Assembly (NCBI GenBank): GCA_937872925.1
Contig: CALMUT010000227.1
Location: forward strand, 1 to 64,000
Source of the DNA: an uncultured Myxococcales bacterium
GTDB lineage: Bacteria > Myxococcota_A > Polyangia > Polyangiales > Polyangiaceae
DNA: 64,000 bases
Direction of reading: 5' to 3'
Shown: piece by piece, positions 3,348 to 12,019 of the stretch
How the letters are laid out: every line of letters starts with the position of its first letter
How positions within the stretch are numbered: the stretch's first letter is position 1
Notes under the pieces: model-generated
What the model was told of the DNA's origin: nothing
What the model saw: the letters and a program-made list of their open reading frames with translations, nothing else
Databases searched by the model: none
Made by a program: the position numbers and the translations under genes

Positions 3348-4463
3348 TCAGTACTGTTGCTGACCGCCGCCGGCTGCCTGCCAGATCTCGTTGAGGTCGT
3401 TGGTCAGGAAGAAGGGCCAGAGGAGGAAGTACATGATCGGGTGCTGGACGCTTGGGTTCGGCACGCCGGCCATGTGCTTGGCTTCCAGCACCTTCTCGGG
3501 CAGACCCCAGATTTGGATCAAGTTGAGGATGGGAATGAAGAACATGATCGGGTTGAGGTCATCCTTCTGCCGGAAGGCCTTCAACTCGCTGACCTGCGTG
3601 AAGAGCAAGTAGAGCAGGTACACAAAGCAGATCATTCCGATCACGAGGTTCATGATCGCGTTGCGGGTCTGACCGATGGGGCCGTGTGCACCCGGCGCGC
3701 CGCCACCGAATCCGCCGCCCTGAGGCGCCATGGGCGCGCCACCGGGAACGGGGCCGGCCATGGCCATGCCGGGACCGGGGGCCGGCCCACCGGGAGGAGG
3801 ACCGACGAAGCAGCGGGGCGCGGGGCCGCGGGGAGGAGGACCGCCGAAGCCGCCGGGACCACCGGGTCCCCCAGGCGGGGGACCGCCGGGGCCACCAGGC
3901 GGAGGACTGCCGGGACCACCAGGCGGAGGACCGCCGAAGCCGCCTGGATCGCCGGGAGGTGGCCCACCAGGAGGAGGGCCGCCGAAGCCGCCGGGCGCGG
4001 GGCCGCCGGGAGGAGGACCGCCGAAGGCGCCAGGATCCCCAGGGGGGGGACCACCCGGGGGTGGACCTCCGGGGGGAGGTCCGCCAGGTCCGCCGGGCGG
4101 GGGCCCGCCAGGCGGGGGTGCGCCGGGGAATCCGCCCGGTCCCGCGGCTACGGTGCCGCCCAGAGGATCTGCGGGTCCGCCGGGAATTGCTGCGGGCGCG
4201 GCCGGGGGCGCGGGGGGAGCCGGCGGAGCCGGGGCTGCACCCGGCGAGGGTGGGGCGACGCCAAGCATCGTGCCCTTGAGTGAGGGTTTCGGCGCCGCGG
4301 GCGGCGCGGACGCCGGGCGCGGGGGCGCCGCAGGCGGGGCGTTGACCATGAGCATGGTGCCCTTGAATTTAGGCGCCGCAGCACCCTTCAAGTTGAAACC
4401 GCACTTCGTGCAGGTCGTCGCCGCTTCATCGTTTTGAGTGCCACAGTTCGGGCAAAACACCAT
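3348..4463 (-). CDS. Zinc-ribbon, Gly/Pro-repeat membrane protein with DUF4234-like C-terminus
   Basis: A 371-aa protein of three parts. N-terminal zinc ribbon with C4, C7, C18 and C21 (CPNC...CTKCG). A linker carrying two copies of KGTML (residues 34-38 and 63-67) followed by about 150 residues of GGPPPGGP-type repeats. A C-terminal hydrophobic domain beginning GQTRNAIMNLVIGM, with several membrane segments and charged turns (SELKAFRQKDDLNP), resembling DUF4234. The start ATG at 4463 has a good GGGAGG ribosome site. The Gly/Pro tract is probably extended and flexible. The Thr residues of the KGTML repeats could be phosphorylation or docking sites, but that is speculation. It is monocistronic, with its own terminator, and divergent from the nuo operon. 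Function unknown. Confidence 0.8.
   Translation of the reverse strand: MVFCPNCGTQNDEAATTCTKCGFNLKGAAAPKFKGTMLMVNAPPAAPPRPASAPPAAPKPSLKGTMLGVAPPSPGAAPAPPAPPAPPAAPAAIPGGPADPLGGTVAAGPGGFPGAPPPGGPPPGGPGGPPPGGPPPGGPPPGDPGAFGGPPPGGPAPGGFGGPPPGGPPPGDPGGFGGPPPGGPGSPPPGGPGGPPPGGPGGPGGFGGPPPRGPAPRCFVGPPPGGPAPGPGMAMAGPVPGGAPMAPQGGGFGGGAPGAHGPIGQTRNAIMNLVIGMICFVYLLYLLFTQVSELKAFRQKDDLNPIMFFIPILNLIQIWGLPEKVLEAKHMAGVPNPSVQHPIMYFLLWPFFLTNDLNEIWQAAGGGQQQY
3770..4120. repeat. Low-complexity GGPPPGGP-encoding tandem tract
   Basis: Degenerate tandem repeats of CCxGGxGGxGGxCC-type units inside the zinc-ribbon gene, encoding Gly-Gly-Pro-Pro-Pro blocks with occasional Phe-Gly. The repeat length is irregular and the tract reads open in several frames on both strands, which explains long spurious frames here. 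Such tracts are prone to length change between strains. Confidence 0.75.
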
Positions 4464-7478: not shown

Positions 7479-10148
7479 ATGGACGCGCTCGCAAAAGCAT
7501 TCCCGCCCGGGGACTTCTCACTCCTTGCCGTCATCGTCTGCCTGCCGCTAATCGGCGCATTCGTAAACGGAGTCTTTGGCAAACGGCTGGGCAAAGAAGC
7601 CGTGCGGCTGATGGCCCTGTCCGCTGTCGGGATCTCGTTTCTCGCCAGTATCGTCGCGTTCCTGCTGTTGAAGCAGGCCCAAACCGGCAGCGACGCGGTG
7701 CGCTTCAGTTGGACGGCGTACGAGTGGTTGCGCGTCAGCGGGCGCCACGACATCGGTTCGATCCCGATTCAGGTCGCGTTTTCCCTCGACGCCCTCAACG
7801 CCACCATGGCGTTGGTCGTCACCGGCGTCGGCTTCTTGATCCACTTGTACTCCACCAAGTACATGGACACAGATCCGAGCTTCCATCGTTTCTTCGCCTA
7901 CTTGAACCTGTTCATCTTCTCGATGCTGGTGCTGATCCTGGGCGACAGTCTGCCGGTGCTGTTCGTGGGCTGGGAGGGCGTGGGCTTGTGCAGCTACCTC
8001 TTGATCGGCTTCTGGTTCGACGACGAAAAGAACGCGGCGGCGGGCAAGAAGGCGTTCATCGTCAACCGCATCGGTGACTTCGGGTTGCTGGTCGCGATGG
8101 CGCTCTTGGCCTACCACGTGGGCGCGCTGGACTGGGTTGGCATCGAGGGCGGCCGCCAGAACCTGCTCAATCCCGTCAAGCTCTGGCCCATTGGCAACGC
8201 CGTGCCGCTGTCCAACGTGCTGCCGGCGGGTGCGGCCGAGTGGCTCAACACGCCACGCTACGCCACGGGCGCGAGTCTCGTCGGGTTCGCGCTGTTTTTG
8301 GGTTGTGCCGGCAAGAGCGCACAAATCCCGCTCTACGTCTGGCTGCCGGACGCCATGGCCGGCCCAACGCCCGTCAGCGCGCTGATCCACGCGGCCACGA
8401 TGGTCACTGCTGGCGTGTACCTAGTCTGCCGCATGAGCGCCGTATTTGTGCTCAGTCCGGCCGTCATGTTCACGATGGCAACGGTTGGCGCGCTCACGGC
8501 GCTGCTGGCTGCCAGCATCGCGTTCGTCCAGAACGACATCAAGAAGGTGCTGGCGTATTCGACGGTCAGCCAGCTGGGCTACATGTTCTTGGGCGTGGGC
8601 GTGGGCGCGTTTTCTGCCGGCTTCTTCCACGTCCTGACGCACGCATTCTTCAAGGCCTGCCTCTTCCTCGGCGCCGGCAGCGTGATCTACCAGATGCACA
8701 AGCGCATCCACGACACGGATGCGTCCCAGGACATGCGCAACATGGGCGGCATGCGCAAGTACATGCCCTACACCTTTGCGACCTTCGCGGCGGCTTGGGT
8801 CGCGATTATCGGCTTCCCGGGCACCAGCGGGTTCTTCTCGAAAGACGAAATCCTGCTGAAGGCCTACACCAACAGCATTCCCTCTCCGATTGAAGGAGGA
8901 AAGATCACCCAGCTCACCCGTCAGGGCGAGCAGACGATCATGGAGCTATTCCAGTGGCCGACCTGGGGCAGCAAGTTCCTCTTCGCCCTTGGCATCCTGG
9001 GCGCTGTAATGACGGCCTTTTATATGTCGCGTCTGGTATTTGGGATTTTCTGGGGCGACTTCAAGGGCTGGACCATCAAGAAGAAGTGGAAAGAGCCCGC
9101 CCACGACGATCACCACCACCACGCCTACGACCCAACCGAGAAGCTGGAGGGGCCCACTCCTCAGGAGAGCCCCTGGGAGATGACACTGCCCTTGGTCGTG
9201 CTGGGCGCACTCAGCATCGGCGCCGGCTTTCTCAACGCCCACGTGTTGCACATCCATCCCCTCGACAACTGGCTGCTGCCCGTCTTCGATTCCGCGGCGA
9301 AGAACGTGACGGTCGCTGAAGGGGGCACGGCCTTCGTGCTCGCTTGCGGTGTCAGCGCGTTCGCTATCGGTACGGGTGGGGCCTACTACGTGTACATGGT
9401 GGAAAAGGGGCGCCCCGCGCGCAGCTTTGTCGAGCAATTCCCGCGCCTGCACCAGTGGGCCTACAACAAGTGGTACGTCGACGAAGCCTACAACGAGGCC
9501 GTCGTGGAATCCGTGGTATCCCTTGCGGACACCGCGAATCAGGCCGACAAGTACGTTGTCGACGGCATCGTCGCGAAGCTGACGGCCTTCGTAGTGCAAC
9601 TAGCGGGCTCGGGGCTGCGCTTGTTGCAAACCGGCCGCGTGCAGGCCTACGCGGCGATGATGGTCGTCGGCGTGGGTGGGCTGGGTTGGTTCCTATTCTC
9701 GCCCCACGCCAACGCAAAGACTGTCGGCGATGCGAGTGCTGGCAACTACGAAGTCGTGGCCGCGCCAGGTTTCGGATACGCCTACCGCTGGGACGCGGAT
9801 GGGGACGGAAACTGGGACACGGAGAACTTCGGTGAACAGATGCGCGTCAACCTTGCCGTGGAACGCGGGGAAACGAAGACCGTGCGGCTGCAAATCAAGA
9901 ACGCCTTCGGGCGTATCGCCGAGCGCAGCGTGCCAGTCACGCGGCCCAAGGCGGATCTCAGTCCGGGCGGAGTCACGACGATTCAGGTCGAACAAGACCC
10001 CGACGGAACGGTGCGCGGCGTCGTGCCGGGATTGAACGCGCCCCCGCGACCCCGCCGTGACAACGCTCCGACTCCCGCGCGGCCCACGTTCCGGCCAGTG
10101 CAGCCGCCGCTACCACCCGGGCAGCCCGGTGCCGGAGGTCCACAATGA
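7479..10148 (+). CDS. nuoL: NADH-quinone oxidoreductase subunit L with an extra C-terminal PKD-like/Pro-rich extension
   Basis: Distal proton-pumping subunit of complex I. 889 aa, against roughly 610-700 for most NuoL. The core has the expected charged residues in membrane helices: Glu in FVGWEGVGLCSYLLIGFW, Lys in GKSAQIPLYVWLPDAM, His in ALIHAATMVTAGVY, Lys in HAFFKACLFLGAG. A His-rich loop (DDHHHHAYDP) lies near residue 545. After the last membrane helix (about residue 735) come some 150 extra residues: an Asp-rich loop DADGDGNWD near 771-780 in a beta-rich stretch ending IKNAFGRIAERSVPVTRP, which looks like a PKD/Ig-type fold, then a Pro/Arg-rich tail. The ATG at 7479 has GAGGAAA upstream; the stop overlaps nuoM (ATGA). 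Core assignment certain; the nature of the extension is inferred. Confidence 0.96.
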   Translation: MDALAKAFPPGDFSLLAVIVCLPLIGAFVNGVFGKRLGKEAVRLMALSAVGISFLASIVAFLLLKQAQTGSDAVRFSWTAYEWLRVSGRHDIGSIPIQVAFSLDALNATMALVVTGVGFLIHLYSTKYMDTDPSFHRFFAYLNLFIFSMLVLILGDSLPVLFVGWEGVGLCSYLLIGFWFDDEKNAAAGKKAFIVNRIGDFGLLVAMALLAYHVGALDWVGIEGGRQNLLNPVKLWPIGNAVPLSNVLPAGAAEWLNTPRYATGASLVGFALFLGCAGKSAQIPLYVWLPDAMAGPTPVSALIHAATMVTAGVYLVCRMSAVFVLSPAVMFTMATVGALTALLAASIAFVQNDIKKVLAYSTVSQLGYMFLGVGVGAFSAGFFHVLTHAFFKACLFLGAGSVIYQMHKRIHDTDASQDMRNMGGMRKYMPYTFATFAAAWVAIIGFPGTSGFFSKDEILLKAYTNSIPSPIEGGKITQLTRQGEQTIMELFQWPTWGSKFLFALGILGAVMTAFYMSRLVFGIFWGDFKGWTIKKKWKEPAHDDHHHHAYDPTEKLEGPTPQESPWEMTLPLVVLGALSIGAGFLNAHVLHIHPLDNWLLPVFDSAAKNVTVAEGGTAFVLACGVSAFAIGTGGAYYVYMVEKGRPARSFVEQFPRLHQWAYNKWYVDEAYNEAVVESVVSLADTANQADKYVVDGIVAKLTAFVVQLAGSGLRLLQTGRVQAYAAMMVVGVGGLGWFLFSPHANAKTVGDASAGNYEVVAAPGFGYAYRWDADGDGNWDTENFGEQMRVNLAVERGETKTVRLQIKNAFGRIAERSVPVTRPKADLSPGGVTTIQVEQDPDGTVRGVVPGLNAPPRPRRDNAPTPARPTFRPVQPPLPPGQPGAGGPQ

Positions 10149-12019
10149 GCCCCGCAGCCAAAGGCATTTTCGAACTGCTGCCCTATTTGGCGGTATTCGC
10201 CATCGGCGCGTTGATCCCCCGGCGACAAGGCATGCTGGAACGCATCGCCTTCGGAGTGGTGGGCGTGCTTTCCCTCGCACTCATCTCGGGCCTCTGGCCG
10301 GATGCGGCGGCCGCAGGAGCAGACGGCGCAGCAGCAACGCCCCCGGAAGAGTGGCCGCACCTGCTGAATGTGATCGTTTTCGTGCCCGTGCTGGGCGCCC
10401 TCGCGATTCTGTTCTTGCCGCGGCAGACCCCGAATCTATTGCGACGCTTCACCCTGGGGATCCTGGCCGTGGACTTCGTTGCCTCGCTGCTGCTCTTGCG
10501 AGTGCCGATGACCCGGGGCTGGCATTTCCAGTACGTGAGCGATTGGCTGCCCAGCTTTGGCATCCGCTACCACGTCGCTTTGGACGGCGTGAGCCTGTGG
10601 ATGGTGCTGCTGGCGACCCTGACGACGCCCATTGCGGCGTACGTTTCCTTCGGATCGATCAAGAAGCGCACCAAGGAGTTGTGCTTTTCGCTGCTCCTGC
10701 TGCACGGCGCGATGCTCGGCGCCTTCGTCTCCCTGGATCTGTTCCTGTTCTATGTGTTCTGGGAGTTGATGCTGGTCCCGATGATCATCTTGATCGGCGT
10801 GTGGGGCGGCGTCGAAAAGATCAAAGCGGCGTACAAATTCTTCCTCTACACCATGGCTGGCAGTGTGCTGATGCTCGCCGCCATTCTGTACATGGTCTGG
10901 GCGCACAAGTCCGTGGCGGGCTTCGTCACCTTCGACTACCTGGCACTCTCGAACCTGGTCTTGCCGCGCACCGCGGCTTGGCTGTGTTTCGGTGCATTTG
11001 CCTTGGCCTTCGTGATCAAGGTGCCGATGTTCCCGCTGCACACTTGGCTGCCTGATGCTCACGTACAAGCGCCGACGGGTGGTTCCATCATTTTGGCCGC
11101 GGTGCTGCTCAAGCTCGGCACCTACGGCTACATCCGCTTTTGCATGGGCATGTTCGGCGGACCTTCTTGGAACGCGGCAGCGAACTTGGCTGGCATCGCC
11201 GTCGGTGGCGGCATCCTCTACGGCGCCCTCGTCGCTTGGCGTCAGGACGATATCAAACGCCTAGTGGCGTACTCGTCCGTGGCTCACATGGGTTTCGTGA
11301 TGCTGGGTTTGTTTAGTGGCACCAAGACCGGCATCGAAGGCGCCATCTTGCAGATGGTCAACCATGGCATCTCAACCGGCGCACTCTTCCTCTTGGTGGG
11401 GGTCATCTACGATCGCCGGCACACCCGTGAGGTGCGGGAGTTCGGGGGCATTGCCAAGGTGATGCCCGTGTACGCGGCGCTCTTCGTGATCGTGACCATG
11501 TCCAGCATCGGTGTGCCGGGCACCAACGGCTTCGTCGGTGAGTTCATGGTGATCATGGGCACCTATGTGTCGCTGCCCCTGGGCTCGCACGGAGGGCTAC
11601 AAGCCGTGCTGGCCGCTTTCGGCGTGATCCTCGCGGCGGTGTATATGCTCAGTGTCGTGCAGCGCGTGTTCTTCGGCCCGCTCACGAATCCCAAGAACAA
11701 GGGCCTCAAAGATCTGAACGTGCGGGAGTCCGTGGCGCTAGCCCCGCTGATCGCGCTGATCTTCGTGATTGGCCTGTTCCCGTCGCTCTTCCTGGAGCGC
11801 AGTCGTGACGCGGTTGGCGTCGTGATTGAGCGCTACACCGAGGGTCGAAAGGCATTCCAAGATATGGACCCGAGCGCAACCAAACCGCGGCTCATGCCTC
11901 GCAGAGGCGGCGTGCTGGAGACGGGCTACCCGGAACCGCCGAAGCCGAAAGACGCAGTGGCAGATGCGCCCACAGCACCTGATCCCAAAACGGCCCTCAA
12001 CGCGGAGGTGCAGCCGTGA
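10145..12019 (+). CDS. nuoM: NADH-quinone oxidoreductase subunit M
   Basis: Antiporter-like proton-pumping subunit. 624 aa, longer than the usual 500 or so because of extra N-terminal hydrophobic segments before FVPVLGALAILFLPR and a hydrophilic Pro/Ala-rich C-terminal tail of about 60 residues. Key residues: Glu in FYVFWELMLVPMII, Lys in FVIKVPMFPLHTWLPDAH, and the DDIKRLVAYSSVAHMG and GTNGFVGEF blocks. The start is within an ATGA overlap with nuoL, the stop within a GTGA overlap with nuoN. Confidence 0.97.
   Translation: MSPAAKGIFELLPYLAVFAIGALIPRRQGMLERIAFGVVGVLSLALISGLWPDAAAAGADGAAATPPEEWPHLLNVIVFVPVLGALAILFLPRQTPNLLRRFTLGILAVDFVASLLLLRVPMTRGWHFQYVSDWLPSFGIRYHVALDGVSLWMVLLATLTTPIAAYVSFGSIKKRTKELCFSLLLLHGAMLGAFVSLDLFLFYVFWELMLVPMIILIGVWGGVEKIKAAYKFFLYTMAGSVLMLAAILYMVWAHKSVAGFVTFDYLALSNLVLPRTAAWLCFGAFALAFVIKVPMFPLHTWLPDAHVQAPTGGSIILAAVLLKLGTYGYIRFCMGMFGGPSWNAAANLAGIAVGGGILYGALVAWRQDDIKRLVAYSSVAHMGFVMLGLFSGTKTGIEGAILQMVNHGISTGALFLLVGVIYDRRHTREVREFGGIAKVMPVYAALFVIVTMSSIGVPGTNGFVGEFMVIMGTYVSLPLGSHGGLQAVLAAFGVILAAVYMLSVVQRVFFGPLTNPKNKGLKDLNVRESVALAPLIALIFVIGLFPSLFLERSRDAVGVVIERYTEGRKAFQDMDPSATKPRLMPRRGGVLETGYPEPPKPKDAVADAPTAPDPKTALNAEVQP

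Follow-up and report, generated by a model that had tools for sequence, protein, structure and literature searches.

The nuoL gene and its extended reading frame

The stretch of DNA analyzed here (the window) comprises 64,000 nucleotides from an uncultured Myxococcales bacterium of the Polyangiaceae and holds the complex I genes nuoEFJKLMN. The remaining genes, nuoABCDGHI, are found on contig C103 of the same genome, so that a complete complex I gene set is present, with a single NuoD and one strong match to NuoH. The window nuoL gene (7479-10145, forward strand) encodes an NADH-quinone oxidoreductase subunit L of 889 amino acids with a C-terminal extension, in a single uninterrupted frame (7479-10148). 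Its product matches the Pfam families Proton_antipo_M (4.5e-74), Proton_antipo_N (5.8e-19) and Proton_antipo_C (3.4e-6), the first two above cut-off. As in other NuoL proteins, a long amphipathic helix, HL (residues 664-713; 9468-9617, forward strand), precedes the last transmembrane helix, TM16 (residues 722-740; 9642-9698, forward strand). HL was placed by a full-length AlphaFold model, in which pLDDT is low at the end of this helix, and by homology to E. coli NuoL HL (PMC3274701), and TM16 by the same model and by alignments.

Beyond TM16, the window NuoL has 149 additional residues (9699-10145) that form a β-rich module followed by a Pro-rich tail. In the full-length AlphaFold model the module spans residues 746-821, and most of the remainder is of low confidence. 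The module itself (~80 residues; 9714-9941, forward strand) is a predicted PKD-type β-sandwich whose six strands enclose the loop DADGDGNWD (residues 772-780; 9792-9818, forward strand), which resembles a DxDxDGxxD calcium loop. The tail (residues 824-889; 9948-10145, forward strand) contains 16 Pro in 66 residues, is predicted to be disordered and is not conserved. Thus, the extension, Asp-rich loop, β-rich segment and Pro-rich tail that the original prediction had proposed after the last NuoL helix are all present, at coordinates that agree to within one base.

An extension of this type could arise if a frameshift fused an unrelated downstream frame to NuoL. At 68% G+C, the chance of 149 stop-free codons is ~0.04 (about 4%), so the open frame is not proof by itself and the evidence for the extension is its comparative conservation. 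The start codon of nuoM (10145-12019, forward strand) overlaps the nuoL stop codon in an ATGA sequence (10145-10148), and an overlap of this type is also found in about half of the relatives. This recurring overlap, the continuous frame and the conservation of the module across the family rule out a frameshift fusion, an artefact that had been named as a possible refutation of the extension.

Other features of these complex I genes and of the window are also of note. NuoH (C103, 17808-19604; L179, 3806-5605, reverse strand) is ~598 amino acids long compared to the usual ~330, and has an insert of ~150-190 residues with about four hydrophobic helices between the motifs RVGPNR and LLHPAADGLK. 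Among the sampled genomes, this insert was matched only in G028 and G033, and other family members align from residue ~201. Elsewhere in the window, an open reading frame at 3348-4463 (reverse strand) combines a zinc-ribbon-like N-terminus with long Gly/Pro-rich repeats and membrane-like segments.

Identity of the C-terminal module

The window extension (9699-10145) has no Pfam match, even at E<=5, so the window protein itself falls below the cut-offs of the PKD families (PF00801/PF18911). Among tails from the same order, 9 of 28 match PKD weakly (best 9.7e-4). The tails of NuoL proteins from other orders of the class give far stronger matches, with a best member that reaches 4.4e-14 for PKD_4 (52.7 bits, cut-off 27) and 5.1e-11 for PKD (42.9 bits, cut-off 23.5); each of the two families is listed by 10 of 13 members at E<=1. 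A profile of the class tails also matches solved collagenases that bear PKD domains, with E values as low as 1e-13 (whole ColH), and hhalign links the window family to the class PKD tails with a probability of 96.4% (E 1.1e-9). The window copy is too diverged for Pfam, but profile-profile comparison connects it to PKD domains by way of its class relatives.

Structural predictions point in the same direction. An AlphaFold model of the domain (pLDDT 83.6) predicts a six-strand β-sandwich, and PKD domains occupy ranks 1, 2, 4 and 5 of its Foldseek matches, at modest E values (3e-3 to 1e-2) and with 6aem as the top match (probability 1.00). VIA-align of the module gave Z ~8, the same as for FN3/Ig folds, and so does not set PKD apart from these. 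Sequence matches in the PDB to EF-hand proteins and calmodulin centre on the short Asp loop, and kinship to these proteins was rejected. Based on the sequence intermediates and the predicted fold, the module is PKD-like, in agreement with the label it was first given. It shares with PKD domains such as those of Vibrio Epp, PrtV (PKD1) and Clostridium collagenase the β-sandwich and the motifs YxWDxDGDG and VxVxN/D-xxG, but PKD domains are usually part of secreted or surface proteins, whereas this copy is fused to a core subunit of complex I.

Distribution and origin of the domain

A search of relatives detected NuoL in 53 of 59 genomes. Within the Polyangiales, all 49 complete or scorable NuoL C-termini carry the module, with tails that extend at least 60 residues past TM16, so the absence from all close relatives that might have refuted the extension is not seen. 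In other orders of the Polyangia, 20 of 25 NuoL proteins are tailed, and the five that lack the module are different paralogues. By contrast, none of the 50 NuoL proteins from other Myxococcota classes has the module; 48 of these stop 0-8 residues past TM16, and the other two at 18 and 32. These comparisons indicate that the PKD-like domain of NuoL dates back to the ancestor of the Polyangia, or nearly so, and that the other sampled classes of Myxococcota lack it.

In a profile search of genome contigs, which used a 5-row alignment of the extension, the named matches are Polyangiaceae and Polyangia assemblies. Matches outside the class (Brevinematales, Herbidospora, Bipolaricaulota) were set aside, as no NuoL was found at those loci. 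No second copy of the extension was found in the window's own genome, where the only matches were weak and confined to the C-terminal half of the extension. In family f18 of the class, two NuoL tails of 86 and 61 residues (L098 and L100, respectively) have no recognizable PKD motif, and may contain a degenerate or replaced domain.

Paralogy provides additional information on how the domain was acquired. A second nuoJKLMN set is encoded on contig C229 of the window's own genome (L064, C229:1-9000), and its NuoL has 607 amino acids and ends at TM16; this membrane-arm set is separate from that of the window, although the genome yielded a single NuoD. Similarly, G059, G061 and G067 each contain one tailed and one tail-less NuoL. 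In a NuoL tree built on the core alignment, with the tail excluded, tailed proteins fall in two clades and the five tail-less copies of the class in other paralogue clades. The tail label requires 2 changes on this tree, and the AU test (p 0.47) does not reject the grouping of all tailed proteins in one clade. The simplest reading, which falls short of proof, is one gain in the ancestor of the Polyangia followed by vertical inheritance.

Constraint on the domain, its loop and its tail

In the window family, the core of the module reads PGxGYxYRWDxDGDGxxD...VxLEVKNAFG, and four extension columns are invariant among the NuoL proteins of the order (G24, G26, Y27 and N68, in extension numbering). 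Across nine pairs, domain dN/dS is 0.07-0.39, well below 1, indicating that the domain is kept by purifying selection. A neutral, tolerated fusion that has no important function would account for the higher rate of evolution of the domain, relative to the NuoL core, in almost all of the pairs and for the degenerate PKD motif of one family, but it is hard to reconcile with purifying selection, with the invariant core residues and with retention in every member of the order that was sampled, so we regard it as improbable.

Other parts of the extension are under less constraint. The Asp-rich loop and the Pro/Arg tail are both present as originally described, but the tail is not conserved and the loop is dispensable. 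Among relatives, the tail ranges from absent to long and is missing in many that keep the domain. Of 50 order-level tails, 28 have the DxDxDGxxD loop and 22 lack it, including whole subclades in which the domain is still present, so a conserved EF-hand-like Ca2+ site is not a feature of these proteins, and this rules out metal binding as the general function. The geometry of this loop, weak matches to EF-hand profiles and the presence of a calcium-bound collagenase PKD structure (4aqo) among the Foldseek matches would suit a Ca2+ sensor or a Ca2+-stiffened module that controls the pump; given the many tails that retain the domain without the motif, we consider this proposal improbable.

In several other families of the order (L049-L060, L062), the PKD-like domain is split by an insert of ~60-100 residues (LRxNGAxV...LxPGDxVxIG), which is possibly a second small β domain.

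Predicted position on complex I

In E. coli NuoL, HL follows the N-side (cytoplasmic) surface, with TMH16 as its anchor in the proximal membrane arm. When the last 24 residues are deleted, ~40% of the complex remains, in a fragile form that has negligible quinone reductase activity (PMC3274701), so the C-terminal end of NuoL matters for assembly. By homology with this protein, the NuoL C-terminus past TM16, and hence the PKD domain, is predicted to be periplasmic, and an Arg-containing stretch before TM16 in the window NuoL agrees with the positive-inside rule. With a linker of only ~5 residues between the end of TM16 (residue 740) and the first strand (residue 746), the domain is expected to lie directly against the proximal membrane arm on its periplasmic face, and we infer that it lies beneath this arm in the region of NuoN/J/K/A.

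This predicted position bears on the partners that can be considered. The original prediction included contact with a 'missing arm' encoded elsewhere, a proposal that we do not uphold: the genes for the peripheral arm are simply on contig C103, and this arm is cytoplasmic, on the opposite side of the membrane, so it cannot be the partner of a periplasmic domain. PKD domains also occur in cell-surface and carbohydrate-binding proteins, so the domain might tether complex I to the envelope, through peptidoglycan or another component, and thereby localize respiratory complexes. The long Pro-rich extension on some tails would suit such a tether, but the linker is short and many relatives that keep the domain have no Pro-rich tail, making this proposal unlikely. 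A short linker, and a Pro-rich tail that varies or is missing, fit a module that is held to the arm better than they fit a long tether.

NuoM also has a Pro-rich tail at its C-terminus, which measures ~50 residues in the window protein (11857-12016) and about 50-70 residues when L066-L070 and L080 are included, and the NuoM tails in the window's subclade have an RRGGxLETGYPEPP-like motif in common. This NuoM tail is probably periplasmic as well.

Possible functions of the domain

In the model we propose, the main NuoL of the ancestor of the Polyangia acquired a PKD-type, Ig-like domain at its C-terminus by fusion, most simply in a single event, and the domain was then kept by purifying selection. 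TM16, the anchor at the proximal end of HL, would span from the cytoplasmic to the periplasmic side, so that the domain would emerge in the periplasm. There it could act as a built-in accessory module that locks the TM16 anchor and adjoining subunits in place and stabilizes the arm or helps to assemble it, much like the work of supernumerary subunits elsewhere. Several observations count against this model. The faster evolution of the domain compared to the core fits a peripheral accessory equally well, and the f18 tails without a recognizable PKD motif suggest that the domain may be dispensable. In addition, neither a conserved surface patch nor a partner was identified, and most of the genomes used are draft or metagenome-assembled. 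The analysis establishes the presence and distribution of the domain, its PKD relationship, its predicted fold and the constraint on it. We infer the topology, position and clamping role, and judge a single ancestral fusion, periplasmic placement and a structural clamp on the arm, taken together, to have about an even chance of being correct.

The main rival to a structural clamp is a periplasmic docking platform for a respiratory partner, such as a cytochrome bc complex, an alternative complex III or a periplasmic electron carrier, within a supercomplex specific to the Polyangia. A common role of PKD domains in extracytoplasmic proteins is to mediate contacts. The periplasmic position predicted from the model and from E. 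coli NuoL (PMC3274701) is consistent with docking, and the inserts of ~60-100 residues that are specific to certain other families of the order would suit a surface that faces a partner, but no partner was found, and no conserved surface patch was identified beyond the PKD core residues. Docking is thus a possible but clearly less probable function than clamping. We hold with similar reserve the broader proposal that complex I itself acquired a periplasmic docking module in the Polyangia, as a class-specific interface that organizes the respiratory chain into supercomplexes or ties it to the envelope.

Relation to known complex I proteins and significance

The NuoL, ND5 and Nqo12 subunits of known complexes have in common with the window protein the Proton_antipo core, HL and the TM16 anchor, and the closest solved chains among the PDB matches listed are ordinary NuoL/ND5/NdhF proteins (e.g. 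E. coli, 613 aa; Thermus, 606 aa). The aligned tail-less relatives end at or just past TM16, whereas the window NuoL adds its 149 residues with a predicted folded domain. Lineage-specific additions are also known in E. coli complex I, where C-terminal extensions of NuoB, NuoI and NuoF and a loop of NuoG are all found on the peripheral arm (PMC8357420). Like these additions and like supernumerary subunits, the NuoL domain is lineage-specific accessory mass on a core subunit, but it differs from the E. coli additions in its location. In the open-access literature, no report was found of a PKD domain on NuoL; the one paper that mentions Myxococcota together with complex I and NuoL is unrelated. 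NuoL and PKD domains are each of a known kind, and what is new is that they are combined, that the combination is conserved throughout the class and that the domain has a predicted location on complex I.

The Polyangia are a class of soil and water bacteria, and in this class the domain represents an addition, specific to the lineage, to an enzyme that otherwise hardly varies, placed on the outermost of its conserved proton-pump subunits. As a clean marker, it also sets the main complex I of the Polyangia apart from the complex I of other Myxococcota and from tail-less paralogues. As a domain retained across the class, it offers a natural handle on the role of the TM16/HL anchor and on possible periplasmic partners of bacterial complex I.
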